Shown here piece by piece: positions 11,127 through 62,736 of a DNA stretch of 64,000 nt; position 1 is the first letter of the stretch; each line of letters starts with the position of its first letter. A program made the translations under genes and the position numbers. The notes under the pieces are model-generated. The model ran no database searches, was not told the origin of the DNA, and saw only the letters and a list, made by a program, of their open reading frames with translations. The DNA comes from Planctomycetia bacterium (GTDB lineage Bacteria > Planctomycetota > Planctomycetia > Gemmatales > Gemmataceae): NCBI GenBank assembly GCA_005772955.1, contig SXID01000075.1, positions 1-64,000 on the forward strand. The letters are read 5' to 3'.

Positions 11127-11163
11127 CCTGATCCTCCACTGAGGTACATGCTCCAGACCACGC

Positions 11164-11300
11164 GAGTAGTTCGTTGCATCTCAAGGTAGGCAACTCGCTC
11201 CGCGAGTTGCGCGCTGGGGTGGCCGTGGTGCGTTGTGTCCGTCCCGAAGGTGTCACTCGCGGAGCGAGTGACCTACCTTGAGATGCAACGAACTACTCGG
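11164..11300. repeat. Palindromic MITE-like element, copy 1
   Basis: Terminal inverted arms of about 24 bases (TAGTTCGTTGCATCTCAAGG at one end, its complement at the other) lead into REP-like hairpins ACTCGC-TCC-GCGAGT on both sides. The centre includes GTGGTGCGTTG and GTCCCGAAGGTGTCACTCGC, both shared with the element at 40807-40990. It lies between divergent genes (TIGR03067 and TPR). No coding sequence is inside, so it would need a transposase from elsewhere. Confidence 0.75.
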
Positions 11301-17266: not shown

Positions 17267-17361
17267 CGGGAGTGTATGGAAATCGAATCCACTGGGAGCG
17301 TTGTTCACACCCCCCACAGGTTTTGAAGACCTGGGCCGACACCAGTCGTGCAAACACTCCC
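17267..17361 (-). tRNA. selC: tRNA-Sec (anticodon UCA)
   Basis: The minus strand folds into a 95-base selenocysteine tRNA. The 8-bp acceptor stem GGGAGTGT/ACACTCCC is one pair longer than in normal tRNAs. The anticodon stem CAGGT/ACCTG holds the loop CTTCAAA, giving UCA, which reads UGA. A long variable arm of 8 pairs (GGGGGTGT with ACGCTCCC, including wobbles) follows, then a 5-bp T stem around TTCGATT. The discriminator is G, and CCA is not encoded. The D arm is weaker than expected: four clear pairs (CGAC/GTCG) and mismatches outside them. The gene implies selenocysteine use in this organism; selA, selB and selD are not in the window. Confidence 0.88.
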
Positions 17362-32308: not shown

Positions 32309-33015
32309 GCACCACGCCCGGACTGTTGGTCAGCGTGCGGTCGGCAGACGAAGTCGCGGCCGCGATCGAAGGCGGCGCCGATCTGATCGACGTAAAAGAA
32401 CCCGCAAAAGGTCCTCTCGCCGCGGCCGAAGCGGAGGTCGTCGCGGCCGTCATCGACGCCGTTGACGCTCGCGTCTCGGTCAGCGCCGCACTCGGCGAAT
32501 GGTCCCCCAACGCCATCACCGAAGCACACTGGCACCTCGAACTGCCGCTTCAGTACGTGAAGTGGGGACTCGCCGGGTACGCGCCCGCGCCCGGTTGGGG
32601 CGAAGACCTGCTCGACACACGGCGCGAACTACCGATCGGTACGGAGATGGTCGCGGTGGCGTATGCGGACTGGGAGCGGGCGAAGTCGGTGCCACCCGCC
32701 GAGGTCGCGAAGTTCGCAAAACGGTTCCGCTTCAAAGCGTTCCTGCTCGACACGTGGGGCAAAGACGGCAAGACACTGCTCGACTTCATGACCGCGAAGG
32801 AAATCGCCGGCCTCGTGGACAGCATGAAACGCGTGTCCACAACGGTGTCCATCGGCGGTTCAATCCGGCCGGAGCAGATCAAGCAACTCAAGGGCGTAGC
32901 GCCAGATTACTTCGCGGTGCGGACCTCCGCGTGCGCCGCGGGCAAGCGCGACGGCGTGATCGACGCGACCCGCGTGCGGAAGTGGAAAGAAGTCCTCGCG
33001 GGGGTGAAGGTGTGA
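32305..33015 (+). CDS. mfnB: (5-formylfuran-3-yl)methyl phosphate synthase (MfnB)
   Basis: A 236-residue TIM-barrel protein. The opening LLVSVRSADEVAAAIEGGAD and then LIDVKEPAKGPLAA matches MfnB (DUF556), with Lys31 of DVKEP as the Schiff-base lysine; a second conserved lysine lies in LQYVKWGL, and DTWGKDGKTLLDFM and VSIGGSIRPEQI follow. MfnB joins two glyceraldehyde-3-phosphate molecules to make the furan of methanofuran. In planctomycetes and methylotrophs this serves the tetrahydromethanopterin/methanofuran C1 pathway. Other genes of that pathway are not in the window. Coupled to the ASCH gene upstream. Confidence 0.88.
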   Translation: MSTTPGLLVSVRSADEVAAAIEGGADLIDVKEPAKGPLAAAEAEVVAAVIDAVDARVSVSAALGEWSPNAITEAHWHLELPLQYVKWGLAGYAPAPGWGEDLLDTRRELPIGTEMVAVAYADWERAKSVPPAEVAKFAKRFRFKAFLLDTWGKDGKTLLDFMTAKEIAGLVDSMKRVSTTVSIGGSIRPEQIKQLKGVAPDYFAVRTSACAAGKRDGVIDATRVRKWKEVLAGVKV

Positions 33016-33112
33016 AGAACCTCTCCCCCCAACCCCCTCCCCTAAGAAGGGAGGGGGAGCAAGACTCCGAAGCCCCTCCCTTCTTAGGGGAGGGGTTGGG
33101 GAGGGGTTCTTC
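33014..33112. repeat. Long palindrome filling the gap between mfnB and the next ATG
   Basis: An inverted repeat with arms of about 40 bases (starting GAAGAACCTCTCCCCCCAAC and ending with its near-complement GGGGAGGGGTTCTTC). It begins inside the mfnB stop codon and ends at the base before the next ATG, so the GGGGAGGGG of its right arm is the only possible ribosome binding site of the following gene. Confidence 0.75.
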
Positions 33113-33631
33113 ATGACCGACCCGTTCCTCACGCTCGTTACCGAAGCACTGAACCTGATGCACCCGCGATTCGCCGCGGCGCACGGCTTGGCGTACTCCG
33201 CGAGCGAAGCCGAAGAACCGCCCGCGGCGCGCAAGGTGCGCGAGCGGTCGTTCGTGATGGAGTTCTACCACGAGTTTCGCCGGATGTGGGATCAGGCCGT
33301 GCCCGTGCAACGCGGGCTGGGCCACGTCTTGATTCAAGCCGACCCCGACGCCGGCGCGCGAACGCCCGACTTGCTCTTCTGGAAGCTCGGTGAACGCGGC
33401 GCACACGACGAACGCCTCGCGGCGGTGTCGTTCGCGTTCCTGACGAACCCGAACGCGGTGAACGCCGATCAGACGCTCCTGGCGAGGTTCCGCGACAAAC
33501 CGGGGTATTCTCGCGCGATAAGCGTCGTGATTGGGCAGCGTGCGGACCTGCCAGCCGACGATGTGCGTACGCCAGATGGCGTCGCAGTGCTGTTCTTCGA
33601 TACTGAGAAGTGGCAAGCGGTTGGGGCGTAA
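33113..33631 (+). CDS. Hypothetical protein, possible nuclease fold
   Basis: A 172-residue soluble protein that I cannot place in a family. It has RERSFVMEFYHEFRRMWDQA (E residues at about 46 and 50) and HVLIQADPDAGARTPDLLFWKLGE, a layout that loosely resembles a PD-(D/E)xK nuclease core (E, then PD, then a strand), but the order and spacing are not convincing. Both ends are bounded by inverted repeats. The start codon directly follows a palindromic element. Confidence 0.65.
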   Translation: MTDPFLTLVTEALNLMHPRFAAAHGLAYSASEAEEPPAARKVRERSFVMEFYHEFRRMWDQAVPVQRGLGHVLIQADPDAGARTPDLLFWKLGERGAHDERLAAVSFAFLTNPNAVNADQTLLARFRDKPGYSRAISVVIGQRADLPADDVRTPDGVAVLFFDTEKWQAVGA

Positions 33632-39949: not shown

Positions 39950-40783
39950 TCAGTCGTTGCTCGCTACAAACACCGGCTCCGCGCGTGGGCCGGTGAGGAT
40001 GCACGCCGTAAGCGGCTCGCGCATCCCGCCGCTCGTGTCGATGCGAATGCGCACCGCGTTCGCATCGGGCGCGTCCACCATGATGTGACCACTCACCTGC
40101 ACCTTCCCCGGCAGCGGGAGTGGGTGCGCTGACAACTTCTTGTCGGCGCCCAACCACACCGGGTATTCAGGCTTGAACAGCCGGTCCGTCTCGGTGCCGA
40201 ACCGCGGATTCACCGCGGCGCGATCCCACACCTTGCGATGCAAGCATTCGAGTTGCACCGTCGCGGCGCAGTCCAGTTCCGGCGACAGTCCGTTGTGCAA
40301 AAAGATGTGCCCTTCCGCCTCCGCGACCCACGGCAGGCTCGCGAGGAACGCGCGGTGTTCGACCGGCATTGATTCCTTGAGTGCCGCGAGTTCTCGCTCC
40401 CACTTCCCCTGCGGCATGTAATCCGGGGTGCGACCCAGGTAACTCAAGAACGTGTACCGGTTGTCGTAGGCCGCACCGTACCGCCATACCCAGTAGGCCG
40501 GTGGCGGACCGTCGTGCAAGCCGACCGCGTTCGACAGCGCGAGGTCGTGGTTGCCCATCACGCACGTGCTCCCGGGCTTCTCCGCGATCAACTCCACCAC
40601 ACGCGACACGAGTTCCTTTACGGTGGAATGCCGGTCCACGAGATCACCGAGGAAGACGAGCTTCGCGTTCGGCCACTCGGGGCGCCGCCGCAACTTCACG
40701 AGAAGCTTGTCGAGCCACTCGACACGCCCGTGCAGGTCACCGATAGCGATGACGGGATAACTCACCTGAGTTGGCAACTGCAT
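39950..40783 (-). CDS. Calcineurin-like metallophosphatase
   Basis: A 277-residue protein with the complete metallophosphatase set: GDLHGR (Asp and His metal ligands, residues about 15-20), GDLVDR (about 46-51), GNHD (about 77-80), a later histidine in IFLHNGLSPEL, and SGHIMVD near the end. The GDLVDR and GNHD forms are those of PPP-type Ser/Thr phosphatases and diadenosine tetraphosphatases. It is cytoplasmic, with no signal. The substrate could be a phosphoprotein or dinucleotide. The stop lies four bases after the convergent membrane-protein gene. Confidence 0.87.
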   Translation of the reverse strand: MQLPTQVSYPVIAIGDLHGRVEWLDKLLVKLRRRPEWPNAKLVFLGDLVDRHSTVKELVSRVVELIAEKPGSTCVMGNHDLALSNAVGLHDGPPPAYWVWRYGAAYDNRYTFLSYLGRTPDYMPQGKWERELAALKESMPVEHRAFLASLPWVAEAEGHIFLHNGLSPELDCAATVQLECLHRKVWDRAAVNPRFGTETDRLFKPEYPVWLGADKKLSAHPLPLPGKVQVSGHIMVDAPDANAVRIRIDTSGGMREPLTACILTGPRAEPVFVASND

Positions 40784-40806
40784 CAGTCTCTCACCTTCCG
40801 AACGTG

Positions 40807-40990
40807 TGGTTCATTCCAGCTCAAGGTAGGTCACTCGCTCCGCGAGTGACACCTTCGGGACAGTCGCAACGCACCACAACCGTAAACGCGCAACCCGCGG
40901 AGCGAGTCGCCTACCTTGAACTGCAACGAACCACAACCGTAAACGCGCAACTCGCGGAGCGAGTCGCCTACCTTGAACTGCAACGAACCA
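40807..40990. repeat. Palindromic MITE-like element, copy 2, with a 57-bp tandem duplication
   Basis: This is the same family as 11164-11300, in opposite orientation: the reverse complement carries GTGGTGCGTTG, GTCCCGAAGGTGTCACTCGC and GTGACCTACCTTGAG. The arms read TGGTTC..CAGCTCAAGGTAGG and its near-complement. Internally a 57-bp unit is repeated twice in tandem (40870-40926 and 40927-40983) with two differences. It lies between divergent genes and has no coding capacity. Confidence 0.78.
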
Positions 40991-41038
40991 CTAGATTGCA
41001 CACTGACATGTTACTTGATCGACACGCGGAGAGCCGCC

Positions 41039-41485
41039 ATGCGGGTGGACCTGTTCGGGCTGGTAATGGAAACGCCGAGTGTTACCTTTTACCTGTGGTC
41101 GCCGTGGCGCTGTTCCGCGATCGAACACAAGATGTTCGACGCGCTGAAGGCGTTGCCCAACGTCACGGCCGAAGCCGCGCCGGACGAGGTGCGGTTGCAC
41201 ATCACCGAGAACAAGAGCTGGCGGGTCGCGGTGCAGAACCTGTCCCGCGTGTTGAAGGGCTGGCAAGAGGAGGCGACCGACGGCGGGAAGGACGAGCGCC
41301 GCAGTTGGCGCTGGTTGATCGAAGCCGACACGGACGCGAGCGGGTACGACATGCAAGGCGAGAAGACCAGTTTCTGGGCGTACGTGCGGCTATCGGTCGA
41401 TCGCGGCGGACCAGGCGAAACGGAGAAGGGCGAAGACATCGACCTGAATGGCTTCGGCGTGCAGGTGTGTGGGGAGGAGGAGTGA
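41039..41485 (+). CDS. Hypothetical protein
   Basis: A 148-residue soluble protein that I do not recognise. The opening RVDLFGLVMETPSVTFYLWS and then PWRCSAIEHKMFDAL, with later WRVAVQNLSRVLKGW and SFWAYVRLSVD, suggest an alpha/beta fold rich in aromatic residues. GGAGAG precedes the ATG. The upstream MITE-like element lies about 50 bases away and could affect its promoter. A short hairpin follows. Confidence 0.65.
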   Translation: MRVDLFGLVMETPSVTFYLWSPWRCSAIEHKMFDALKALPNVTAEAAPDEVRLHITENKSWRVAVQNLSRVLKGWQEEATDGGKDERRSWRWLIEADTDASGYDMQGEKTSFWAYVRLSVDRGGPGETEKGEDIDLNGFGVQVCGEEE

Positions 41486-55382: not shown

Positions 55383-56413
55383 GCGAGCGCCTCCAGCCGG
55401 GCGACAGCGGCTTTGGCACTCGCGACAAGTGACAACCCATTGTCACACGCCGGCGCGAACCTGGCGCGGTCGCACGCGCGGAAGACGTCGCCGGTCTCTT
55501 CGGCAATCTCGTCAGGCACGTTCCGTTCTTTCAGCGCAGCGGCGATCTCCGAGGGCGTTACAGCCGCTTCGGGGATCGGGAACCGCGTTCGCAGGTAGCC
55601 CAGCACCGCGTTCGCGACGGCTGCGGGCGGGTCCGGCATGCGGTTCGCCTTGCGGATCGCGTCGGTTGCGCGGCGCGCGGCGCGCGATCGGCGCATTCGC
55701 GCGAGTTGTGCGGCATCGGGAAACACGCGACGCCACACGAGGAACCAGCCGAAGCATACGAGCGGGCCGAAGCACACCGCCGCGAGCCACGCCCACTGGC
55801 ACGGCACAAACGGCCCGCGACCGATCACGTCCGGGCCAGTCGCGGGGTGAAAGAGGAACTCCGGGGCTTCGATGGGGACGATGGACCGCTCCGCCTTCGG
55901 CGGTTCCGTCACAATGATCTCGACGGCGTCAGTTCGCGTGGACGGGAACCGCTTTCCCTCCGCGGCGAACTGGTTGTAGTAGTGGAACTTGAGCGCGGGC
56001 ACTTCCGTCACGGACGTGTCTCGCGGAGCGAGTTTGTACCCGAACCGCACTTCCTTCGCGGTCGCGTTGCGAGGCGGGTCGGGAACCTCAGTGATCTTGA
56101 ACACGTCGAACGGCTTCAGCTTCCGCAGGTCGGGCTTCACAATCTCGGTGGGATTCTGCGCGCCAGTGACGACCAGTGTGACCGTGAGATCGCTGCTCAC
56201 GTGAACCGTCTTCGGCTCGACCTCCCACCGCACGCTGATGCCCCGCCCCTCCGCCTTGTAGTAGTCCACCGTCGGTTCGCCGGGCCGGACCGGCCCATTG
56301 GCAAGGGTGAAGGATGAAGGATGAAGGATGAAAACAACACTGATGAGCGCGGCGCGGCGAAAACTTCGTGCGAACTCGCACCGGCGACGAACCTGGTTGG
56401 TGTCCGTTTTCAT
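55379..56413 (-). CDS. BatD-like protein
   Basis: A 344-residue protein. After an N-terminal hydrophobic leader (AALISVVFILHPSSFTLANG) come beta-sandwich segments (HVSSDLTVTLVVTGAQNPTE, VRFGYKLAPRDTSVTEVPAL), a membrane helix (WAWLAAVCFGPLVCFGWFLV) and a helical cytoplasmic tail. That layout is BatD. The start codon lies inside the arm of an inverted repeat, and the leader is partly encoded by the other arm. It overlaps batE by three bases and follows batC by 28 bases. Confidence 0.8.
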   Translation of the reverse strand: MKTDTNQVRRRCEFARSFRRAALISVVFILHPSSFTLANGPVRPGEPTVDYYKAEGRGISVRWEVEPKTVHVSSDLTVTLVVTGAQNPTEIVKPDLRKLKPFDVFKITEVPDPPRNATAKEVRFGYKLAPRDTSVTEVPALKFHYYNQFAAEGKRFPSTRTDAVEIIVTEPPKAERSIVPIEAPEFLFHPATGPDVIGRGPFVPCQWAWLAAVCFGPLVCFGWFLVWRRVFPDAAQLARMRRSRAARRATDAIRKANRMPDPPAAVANAVLGYLRTRFPIPEAAVTPSEIAAALKERNVPDEIAEETGDVFRACDRARFAPACDNGLSLVASAKAAVARLEALA

Positions 56414-56424
56414 CCTTCATCCTT
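56317..56424. repeat. Inverted repeat spanning the start of the batD-like gene
   Basis: Perfect 19-bp arms (AAGGATGAAGGATGAAAAC at 56317-56335 and its complement at 56406-56424) with a 70-base spacer. The right arm contains the start codon and the only ribosome-binding-like bases; the left arm encodes part of the signal peptide (VFILHPS). Confidence 0.72.
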
Positions 56425-57385: not shown

Positions 57386-58480
57386 TTACCGACCGCGAAG
57401 CCAGCCGACGAGGAACAGCACCAGCGCCGGCGTCAGGAACCACGGGTAACGCTCCTTCGGCTGCGGAACCTGATCCTCGCCGACGATGGTGCGAGGCGTC
57501 TGTCCCTCGATACGGTTGTGGAAGAACTCGCCGAGTTGCGGCGCACCGGTGCGAGCCGCAACGTAGTGCCCGTTCGTGTCCGTGGCGCTCTGCTTCAAAA
57601 GATCCTCTTGCAACTGTGTGCTGAATACTTCCGCCCCGTCGTGGTCAGGTTCGGGCACGGTCGCTTGGGTCGGGTGGCCGACACCAACGGTGTAAACCGG
57701 GATGTTCGCGGTCCGCGCAGCGTTCTTCCCGCGAACCCATTCCTTGTCACCCTCGTCTGGGTCGTCACCGTCGGAGATGAGGAAAATGTCTTGCGAACCG
57801 GTGAACCGCGAATCGTGCGTTTCGATGGCTGCAACGAGCGCGGCGCCGATGCGCGTGCCAGACGTGATGTTCGGGTCCGCGCCGGCCTTGCACTCCGGTG
57901 GCGGGAACCGGCCGTGAATGTCATTCAGAATCGCCTTCACGTGCTTGTAGTCGGTCGTGAGCGGGCAAATCACTTTCGGCTTCGACGCGAACACCACCAC
58001 GCCGACGCGATGCCCGCCACGCCGCGCGATCGCGCCGAGCAAGTCCAGCGAGCCGGCGCGAGCACCTTCCCATCGCGTTTTGGCTTTCGGGTCGGTCATG
58101 TCCTCGGCGAGCATCGAGCGGCTCAGATCGATCACGATGACGATGTCCCTTCCCACCGCGACGCCGGGTTCGTCGCTCTTACCCCAGCGCGGCCCGCTAA
58201 TGCCGAGAATCAGGAAGACCCACGCGAGCGGATACGCCAGACCCAACCATCGGCGTGTGCGGCGCGGGTGCGTGAGTTGTCCGGCGACCGCCGCGGGCCG
58301 CCCGATAGCCGCGAACGCGCGATTGCGCTGTCGCGCCGCGAACCGGTTCAGCAAGGCGAGCAGCGGAAGCAAGAGCAACAGCCACAGCGCGTCCGACCGG
58401 GCCAACCGCACGGCCGCGAGGAACTCTCGCCCGTCGGTCAGCAACCCAGACAGCCCGGATGATGTGGCCAGAAGAAGCAT
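57386..58480 (-). CDS. BatB-like von Willebrand factor A protein
   Basis: A 364-residue membrane protein. Two N-terminal membrane helices (ALWLLLLLPLLALLNRFA, WLGLAYPLAWVFLILGI) precede a VWA domain with the MIDAS motif DLSRSM (residues about 117-122), a TSGTRIGAAL threonine site and FLISDGDDPDEG. One C-terminal helix (FLTPALVLFLVGWL) ends it. The VWA domain would face the periplasm and bind metal and partners. The start abuts an inverted repeat and has no Shine-Dalgarno sequence. Confidence 0.87.
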   Translation of the reverse strand: MLLLATSSGLSGLLTDGREFLAAVRLARSDALWLLLLLPLLALLNRFAARQRNRAFAAIGRPAAVAGQLTHPRRTRRWLGLAYPLAWVFLILGISGPRWGKSDEPGVAVGRDIVIVIDLSRSMLAEDMTDPKAKTRWEGARAGSLDLLGAIARRGGHRVGVVVFASKPKVICPLTTDYKHVKAILNDIHGRFPPPECKAGADPNITSGTRIGAALVAAIETHDSRFTGSQDIFLISDGDDPDEGDKEWVRGKNAARTANIPVYTVGVGHPTQATVPEPDHDGAEVFSTQLQEDLLKQSATDTNGHYVAARTGAPQLGEFFHNRIEGQTPRTIVGEDQVPQPKERYPWFLTPALVLFLVGWLRGR

Positions 58481-58482
58481 GA

Positions 58483-58595
58483 ATTAACCACAAAGGCACA
58501 AAGGACACAAAGAAGACAGCAGAGAACGCAGTGTTCTCAATTCATGGTGTCCGTGTCTTTCTCTTCTTTGTGTCCTTTGTGCCTTCGTGGTTAAT
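58483..58595. repeat. 34-bp inverted repeat between batA and batB
   Basis: Arms of 34 bases (ATTAACCACAAAGGCACAAA... and its complement, 33 of 34 matching) enclose a 45-base centre. The element fills almost the whole gap: one arm ends two bases from the batB start codon, the other 12 bases from the batA stop. Both genes are on the minus strand. Confidence 0.78.
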
Positions 58596-61185: not shown

Positions 61186-61707
61186 ATGAAGACGATCCGT
61201 TTTTTCTGTGCGGTTGCGGTGGTCGCGGTACTGGTTTCACCCGCGGCGCGGGGTCAGGAAGGCCCGAAGCCCGGTGCGGAACACGAGATCCTCAAGAAGA
61301 TGGAGGGCAACTGGGATCTCGTGATGAAGTTCGGCGGGAACGAGTCGAAAGGGACCGTGACGTACAAGATGGAACTGGGCGGGCTGTGGCTGGCCGGGTC
61401 GCTGGAGAGCGAACTGTTCGGCGCGAAGTTTCAGGGGAAGAGCCTCGACACCTACGACGCCGGCAAGAAGAAGTACATTGGCGTGTGGGCCGACAGCATG
61501 GGCACGCAACCGATGATTCTGGAAGGCACCTATGACAAGGAAAAGAAGACCCTGACGATGTCGGGCGATGGCCCCGGAATGGACGGCAAGCCGACGAGGT
61601 ACCGCTCGGTGTCCGTGTTCACCGACGCGAACACGACCAACTTCCGCATGTACGTCGGCGACGGAAAAGACCCGGCGTTCACAATCGTCTACAAGCGGAA
61701 GAAGTAG
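61186..61707 (+). CDS. DUF1579 secreted protein
   Basis: A 173-residue protein with a signal peptide (FFCAVAVVAVLVSPAARG). The mature part is a single DUF1579-like beta barrel: HEILKKMEGNWDLVMKFGG, YKMELGGLWLAGSLESELFG, KSLDTYDAGKKKYIGVWAD, GTYDKEKKTLTMSGD and RSVSVFTDANTTNFRMYV. It is probably a lipocalin-like exported protein of unknown ligand. AGGGAGAA precedes the ATG. Confidence 0.87.
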   Translation: MKTIRFFCAVAVVAVLVSPAARGQEGPKPGAEHEILKKMEGNWDLVMKFGGNESKGTVTYKMELGGLWLAGSLESELFGAKFQGKSLDTYDAGKKKYIGVWADSMGTQPMILEGTYDKEKKTLTMSGDGPGMDGKPTRYRSVSVFTDANTTNFRMYVGDGKDPAFTIVYKRKK

Positions 61708-61710
61708 CTT

Positions 61711-61838
61711 TTGGTGTTTGGTATTTGGTGTTGAGTGTTTAGTGTGTTGGTTTCTGGGTTAGCCACGAGCCGCAGGCGAGCGTGTGCGTTCGCACACCCC
61801 TGCGGGGTTGCGGCTAACCAAACTACACCAAACACCAA
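61711..61838. repeat. Palindromic element ending at a start codon
   Basis: Outer arms TTGGTGTTTGGT and ACCAAACACCAA match exactly; inner GGTTAGCC/GGCTAACC and a GTGTGCG-TT-CGCACAC hairpin follow. It fills the gap from four bases after the DUF1579 stop to two bases before the amidohydrolase ATG. Confidence 0.72.
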
Positions 61839-61839
61839 C

Positions 61840-62736
61840 ATGCTCACTCGTCGCCACTTCCTCGCTTCCGCTATCGCACTCCCTTTTGCCGCGCGTGCCC
61901 GCGGCGCGGACCCGAAGACGCTGGTCGTCGATACGCACCTTCACTGCTTTGCGGGCAAGGACGACCCGAAGTTCCCCTACCACAAAGACGGCCCGTACCA
62001 ACCCGCGGACCCGGCCACACCGGAACATCTCCTGAAGTGCATGGCCGATGGCGGTGTGGATTACGCGATCGTCGTTCACCCGGAACCGTACCAGGACGAT
62101 CATCGTTACCTTGAACACTGCCTCACGGTTGGGAAGGGCAAGCTGAAGGGAACGTGTCTGTTCTTCTCGGGGCGCAAGGGCGCGCTGGACGAAATAAAGG
62201 CCCTGGCGAAGAAGGTGCCGCTCGTCGCGGGTCGGATTCACGCGTACAACCCGGAGCGCCTTCCGCCGTTCGGTAAGCCAGAACTCACCGCGATGTGGAA
62301 GCAAATCGGCGAACTCGGCCTCGCGGTTCAACTGCACTTCGAGCCGAAGTACGCGGAGGGCTTCGAGCCGCTCATCAAGGAGTTTAAGGACACACGCGTA
62401 CTCATTGACCACTTGGGCAGGCCTTTTCAAGGCACGGAGAAGGAGTACGCGGTGGTGCTGAAGTGGGCGAAGTACACCAACGTGACGATGAAGTTATCCG
62501 CGGTGCCAGACAAGAAGACGTACCCGCACAGCGACCCGCAACCGGTGTTGAAGCAGTTAACGGAAGCGTTCGGTGCGGACCGCTTGATGTTCGGCGGCGG
62601 CTACAACGACAAGGCGACCGGCAAGAGCTACAAGGCGGAACGCGACCGCGTCGCGGCGCTGCTCGCACACCTGAGCGAAGCCGACCGCGCAAAGGTCTTC
62701 GGTGGCACCGCCGCGAAGCTGTTCAAGCTGGGGTGA
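61840..62736 (+). CDS. Tat-exported amidohydrolase family protein
   Basis: A 298-residue protein. LTRRHFLASAIALPFAARAR is a twin-arginine signal. The TIM barrel begins LVVDTHLHCFAG (the HxH metal site), continues VDYAIVVHPEPYQDDHRYLE, VAGRIHAYNPERLPPFGK, VLIDHLGRPFQG with a metal histidine, and DRLMFGGGYND near the end, where an Asp ligand is expected. It fits the amidohydrolase-2 group (lactonase or decarboxylase-like). Substrate unknown. No ribosome binding site is visible because a palindrome ends directly before the ATG. Confidence 0.85.
   Translation: MLTRRHFLASAIALPFAARARGADPKTLVVDTHLHCFAGKDDPKFPYHKDGPYQPADPATPEHLLKCMADGGVDYAIVVHPEPYQDDHRYLEHCLTVGKGKLKGTCLFFSGRKGALDEIKALAKKVPLVAGRIHAYNPERLPPFGKPELTAMWKQIGELGLAVQLHFEPKYAEGFEPLIKEFKDTRVLIDHLGRPFQGTEKEYAVVLKWAKYTNVTMKLSAVPDKKTYPHSDPQPVLKQLTEAFGADRLMFGGGYNDKATGKSYKAERDRVAALLAHLSEADRAKVFGGTAAKLFKLG

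Follow-up and report, generated by a model that had tools for sequence, protein, structure and literature searches.

A palindrome between a DUF1579 gene and an amidohydrolase gene of a Gemmataceae bacterium is probably one copy of a dispersed REP-type element

The window analysed here is a stretch of 64,000 nucleotides from a Planctomycetia bacterium of the family Gemmataceae (contig SXID01000075.1). It holds a gene for a DUF1579 protein of 173 amino acids (61186-61707, forward strand; Pfam PF07617, E 1e-32), which ends with the stop codon TAG at 61705-61707, followed by a gene for an Amidohydro_2 protein of 298 amino acids (61840-62736, forward strand; Pfam PF04909, E 2e-35). At this junction (61705-61840), 132 bases lie between the stop codon and the ATG at 61840, and a palindromic element (61710-61839) takes up 130 of them, so that only the first two bases are outside. 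The element opens with a left heptamer array (61710-61751, forward; TTTGGTG, TTTGGTA, TTTGGTG, TTGAGTG, TTTAGTG and TGTTGGT), which is both a direct repeat and the outer arm. After a short joint follow a REP unit with the tag GTTAGCC and an imperfect hairpin with the inner stem GCC-GCA-GGC (61758-61784, forward), a spacer of 7 nt read from the sequence (61785-61791) and an inverted REP unit of the subtype with a 4-5-bp stem, ACCCC-GCA-GGGGT (61792-61818, reverse). A second short joint leads to the inverted heptamer array (61826-61839, reverse), whose units CACCAAA and CACCAAC are the reverse complement of left units. Both REP units are defined by unit alignment and pair counts, the second also by folding. 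The outer arms TTGGTGTTTGGT (61711-61722) and ACCAAACACCAA (61827-61838) are exact over 12 nt, 100% complementary and 104 nt apart, as a preliminary description of the window had it; they end, however, one base before the ATG and not two, and this base, C 61839, is part of the second CACCAA(C) unit. The RNA fold of 61690-61860 reaches -72 kcal/mol (z -4.06) and the DNA fold of 61710-61839 a z of -4.74, with none of 200 shuffles equal in either case.

The ATG at 61840 is the likely start codon, as the alignments with orthologs (81-92% identity) begin at residue 1-3, where a TRR motif is conserved; by reading, this N-terminus carries a Tat signal. Translation into the element from the in-frame GTG at 61735 was ruled out, since the orthologs begin at the TRR motif. 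It is true that no Shine-Dalgarno sequence precedes the ATG. Such an absence is common in this genome (G000), because only 172 of 385 well-scored genes have AGGA, GGAG or GAGG at -16 to -5 (26 of 385 in a control window), counted with a gene caller that gives a small bonus for such motifs. Between 61600 and 61900 we found no promoter or terminator-like site, and the interval lacks the GC-rich stem followed by a T run of an intrinsic terminator. The element gives no Rfam match above the gathering score, the sole match in the window being a selenocysteine tRNA at 17268-17361 (reverse strand). On the other side of the amidohydrolase gene, the gene segment 63067-63310 has many repeats in all six relatives searched.

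The element is a dispersed repeat with 22 matches in its own genome, several of which represent a single place matched on both strands or by both arms. Matches occur in 13 of 41 genomes searched, all of them among the 19 of the same genus, and in none of the 22 genomes of other genera. In an alignment of nine copies the inverted REP pair with its short spacer is common to all, and often the heptamers are as well. Among the 16 copies placed in G000, a stop side could be assigned for 13, and in 11 of them the stop codon is no more than 15 nt away, the extragenic position near 3' ends expected of a REP. For the hairpin itself, 51 units were picked by the GTTAGCC tag alone, so that its presence in all units follows from the selection; after removal of ten with low similarity to the rest, 41 remained, a short imperfect hairpin in many copies. 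The inner stem has 3 bp in 32 units and 4-5 bp in nine, and the pair in column 12 is G-C in 27, C-G in eight and T-A in two, i.e. with changes on both sides; the subtype was set by the better-pairing register, which biases subtype and pair counts towards pairing. The tag is neither of the tetranucleotides GTAG or CGTC used to define REPs, GTAGCC being found only in a sister family.

REP-type hairpin pairs are believed to owe their dispersal to a domesticated transposase, the RAYT, an HUH, Y1 tyrosine transposase of the IS200/IS605 lineage. In the sister genome G001, GTTAGCC REPINs directly adjoin a RAYT-like gene (L280:1501-2097) on either side, an arrangement not found in G000. A palindrome adjoins seven of the eight Y1_Tnp loci of G000, each with its own palindrome family and at four loci on both sides (L011, L013, L014, L016); L009 is a locus without one. 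Seven RAYT-like proteins of G000 were scanned with the profile NF047646. All have the HUH motif and score 22-64 bits, below the curated cut-off of 80, and they are divergent RAYTs. A RAYT for the GTTAGCC family with more than 58% identity to the G001 protein was not found in the G000 contigs by the motif near Y1 loci, the profile or the G001 protein as query. The G000 protein closest to that of G001 is L013 (58% identical); its gene has copies of the sister family GCGTAGCCGCGACC, which has a GTAG tag, on both sides. Two related RAYTs likewise carry TTTAGCCGCGAC repeats, L301 on both sides and L299 on one. L297 was rejected as a candidate as it is 96% identical to L014, and at the Y1 loci of relatives GTTAGCC appears only as lone motifs, in L170 and L185. 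In the relative G007, ten 20-kb stretches (L333-L342) contain 14 long palindromes per 100 kb, and its genome gives no Y1_Tnp or RAYT match. Since it is rich in palindromes all the same, some palindromes of the genus may not depend on RAYTs.

The arms are a feature in their own right. Left arms repeat at a lag of 7 and more weakly at 14, and no other lag from 2 to 15 exceeds a z of 2.4. The z at lag 7 is 10.7 for the gap palindromes of G000, 17.6 when palindromes outside gaps are added (155 arms) and 7.4 for 85 arms of relatives; it is not significant for the 22 arms of G007 (1.2), and the comparison samples comprise only two arms in E. coli and one in G019. The heptamer units are unlike each other (TTTGGTG, AAGGATG, GTGGGCA, GAGTGAT, AAGTTCC, GAGGGAT). 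A few palindromes also have GAAGAC where the arm ends on its inner side (7 of 134 against 0.86 in shuffles). All eight heptamer-armed palindromes of relatives that were read, and a further one in G000 (L314), lack the GTTAGCC core; arms and core are therefore separable modules. To our knowledge, heptamer arrays are not a known feature of REPs, and in the open-licence PMC literature we found no paper on inverted heptamer arrays as arms or on REPs or RAYTs of Gemmata.

At a threshold score of at least 48, a G000 sample of 693,526 bp (28 stretches, 513 called genes) contains 164 palindromes, or 23.6 per 100 kb, compared with 0.1 in a single shuffle of the same DNA, 0.5 in a Gemmataceae genome of another genus (200-kb sample) and 2 in E. 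coli (100-kb sample). Placement was evaluated for the 134 palindromes in gaps between called genes, with the other 30 excluded. Stop-side edges lie within 5 nt of the stop in 67 of 156 cases, against an expectation of 44.4 if palindromes were placed at random within their own gaps (none of 5,000 trials reached this count), whereas start-side edges lie within 5 nt of the start in only 8 of 112 cases, with 19.6 expected (0 of 5,000 trials as low). The start positions carry some calling error (58480 was predicted at 58444), which does not touch the stops. In tandem gaps of G000, 70 of 84 palindromes are nearer to the stop and 14 nearer to the start (p = 4e-10), in G007 nine of nine are nearer to the stop, and among G000 gaps of at least 80 bp a palindrome is most frequent in convergent (30/52), less so in tandem (77/205) and least in divergent ones (14/75). 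The comparison of palindrome distances with random placement that the preliminary description had called for thus does reveal non-random placement, but the boundary concerned is the stop codon and not, as supposed there, the start codon. This gene-end position is real and already known for REPs: section 15 of PMC3733652 describes them as neighbours of 3' ends, located between convergent or unidirectional genes and in some cases touching stop codons. For E. coli, PMC12306157 reports lowered translation where a REP lies no more than 15 nt from a stop.

All four start codons said to be bordered by palindromes (33113, 56413, 58480 and 61840) are indeed so bordered, and by reading the four palindromes are unlike in sequence. 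As sequence and junction comparison indicate, the one at 33013-33113 fills a stop-start gap; the genes overlap by 4 nt in G001, three unlike palindromes separate stop and start in G000, G015 and G010, and G007 has a 719-bp gap without a palindrome. This palindrome is a high-copy one, and copies up to 97% identical in G001 and G015 suggest, as far as sequence identity can tell, recent spread. The second, with AAGGATG heptamer arms, extends over the 5' end of the 56413 gene (56317-56424; sequence and relatives): the start codon falls in one arm, and a stretch of the likely signal peptide is encoded by the other. Both arms differ jointly between G000/G015 (AAGGATG) and G001 (AGTGATG), and by reading the arm encodes a hydrophobic signal-peptide part in either version. 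The third, of the ACCACAAAGGCACAAAG type (58483-58595; sequence and relatives), begins 2 nt from the ATG at 58480, and its counterpart in G001 and G015 reads like the G000 palindrome with CGCAGAG in place of every CACAAAG on both sides. Elsewhere in the window, 40806-40991 and 11163-11299 are two copies of one palindrome family. In G001 and G007, the junction around the former (40783-41039) is a palindrome-free gap of 82 bp, and G015 carries a different palindrome there at almost the same offset; an origin of the 40806 palindrome as an inverted duplication of the host flank was rejected by eye, its outer arm recurring at 11163.

Across 107 orthologous pairs, covering 39 of the 52 junctions of the window and six relatives, a palindrome is present in both species in 20, in G000 only in 26, in the relative only in 12 and in neither in 49. 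With 26 + 12 one-sided pairs, most palindromes are dispensable between species, and since the gap is mostly longer in the species that alone has the palindrome, insertion is favoured. Co-occupied pairs exceed expectation (12.7, p 0.006, G000 status shuffled within gap type), and 19 of the 20 have no blastn similarity at E 1e-3, an upper bound for unlike pairs because the 58.5 kb palindrome of G001/G015 reads as a rewritten G000 one. The earlier formula that position and not family is shared therefore holds in that unlike palindromes occupy a common gene-boundary position, but two of the 20 pairs may be one element rewritten in concert. The amidohydrolase junction itself carries GGCGAGCG-type palindromes in G015 and G018 and a ACCACAGAG-type one in G010, and in G001 the amidohydrolase gene sits behind another gene. 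G006 and G007 have no palindrome there and by reading show a terminator (hairpin and T run), a -10-like TATACT and a different leader. The relatives' leader is thus absent in G000, which is half of what the idea of a replaced leader implies; the insertion itself may or may not have removed it. Together, these data suggest turnover of unlike palindromes at the same junction; against turnover in place, insertions may simply be tolerated at these junctions in every species, and the species compared are related.

Structure, dispersion, position and the RAYT flank place the element with the REPIN/RAYT systems, and in our assessment 61710-61839 is quite probably one copy of a dispersed, non-autonomous REP-type element with a REPIN core in inverted heptamer arrays. 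The core is a REPIN of two inverted copies of the GTTAGCC-tagged hairpin, nested in inverted heptamer arrays that likewise surround other cores. By analogy with the known family, a RAYT would recognise the hairpin as single-stranded DNA and spread it in trans, and such elements would land, or survive, mainly just behind stop codons; that this one also abuts the amidohydrolase ATG is due to the shortness of the gap. The amidohydrolase gene may thereby be left with no promoter or Shine-Dalgarno sequence of its own and with a strong hairpin in a read-through transcript. Several observations fit this explanation less well, namely the 58% identity of the closest RAYT in the G000 contigs, the profile scores below the cut-off, a tag GTTAG in place of the classical GTAG, the poor fold of the first REP unit of the window when alone, the G007 palindromes without Y1 or RAYT match, and the heptamer arrays.

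The palindromes might instead be selected functional 3'-end structures (terminator, RNA stabiliser or insulator) whose sequence is swapped or rewritten, in which case the one at 61710-61839 would have taken over the job of the G006/G007 terminator. The bias towards stop codons and convergent gaps, the excess of mostly dissimilar co-occupied junctions and the hairpin with T run in G006 and G007 agree with such a role, which we regard as possible but clearly the weaker account, given that 61600-61900 has no terminator-like site, that so many palindromes are one-sided and that shared tolerance of the same junctions also explains co-occupancy. Rather doubtful, to our mind, is that the junction palindromes of the genus are long-lived and have both arms rewritten together, so that position persists while sequence turns over and the class is defined by period and symmetry. 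Inverted 7-nt arrays of many unlike sequences around unlike cores (the REPIN, the signal-peptide coding stretch at 56.4 kb) would be its hallmark, the arms presumably being kept perfect by arm-onto-arm copying, whether through a RAYT-like nickase or by template switching at hairpins. A MITE derived from an ordinary insertion sequence of the DDE type, with terminal inverted repeats, would also have inverted arms around a core and dispersed copies; this is very improbable, as the empty sites show by eye no clear target-site duplication, the core consists of paired REPs whose twin flanks a RAYT gene, and the arms are variable heptamer arrays and not fixed ends. The least credible alternative is a mechanism that targets start codons, which the four palindrome-touching starts in the window had brought to mind and which the depletion at start sides contradicts.

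Compared with the REPIN as characterised in PMC3116915, the element shares the inverted REP pair with a short spacer, the dispersed and extragenic distribution and the twin copies flanking a RAYT gene, and it differs in its heptamer-array frame, its unlike stem subtypes and a cognate RAYT only in the sister genome. The GTAG-tagged REP superfamily and the TIRs of TIRYTs, for which PMC3733652 names Planctomycetes among the hosts, have the same position by 3' ends, in convergent and unidirectional gaps, and RAYT flanks; their tag differs from the GTTAG found here, GTAG being that of the sister family beside the RAYT L013. The heptameric tandem repeats of Xanthomonas and Nostoc described in PMC4692102 are also intergenic 7-nt units that vary between close relatives at the same junction; in contrast, those described here form inverted pairs around a core and comprise many unlike units. 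The element's heptamer frame is unusual, its tag differs from GTAG, and the contigs of its own genome contain no close RAYT.

A striking palindrome at a gene boundary is hence explained by a known kind of element, and the boundary that matters moves from the start to the stop codon. The genus is crowded with long palindromes, many of its RAYT-like genes are each associated with a distinct family, and one junction can carry unlike palindromes in different related species. In consequence, the spread of REP-type elements becomes testable in this genus, as does the question whether gene ends are their target or only the place where they persist.
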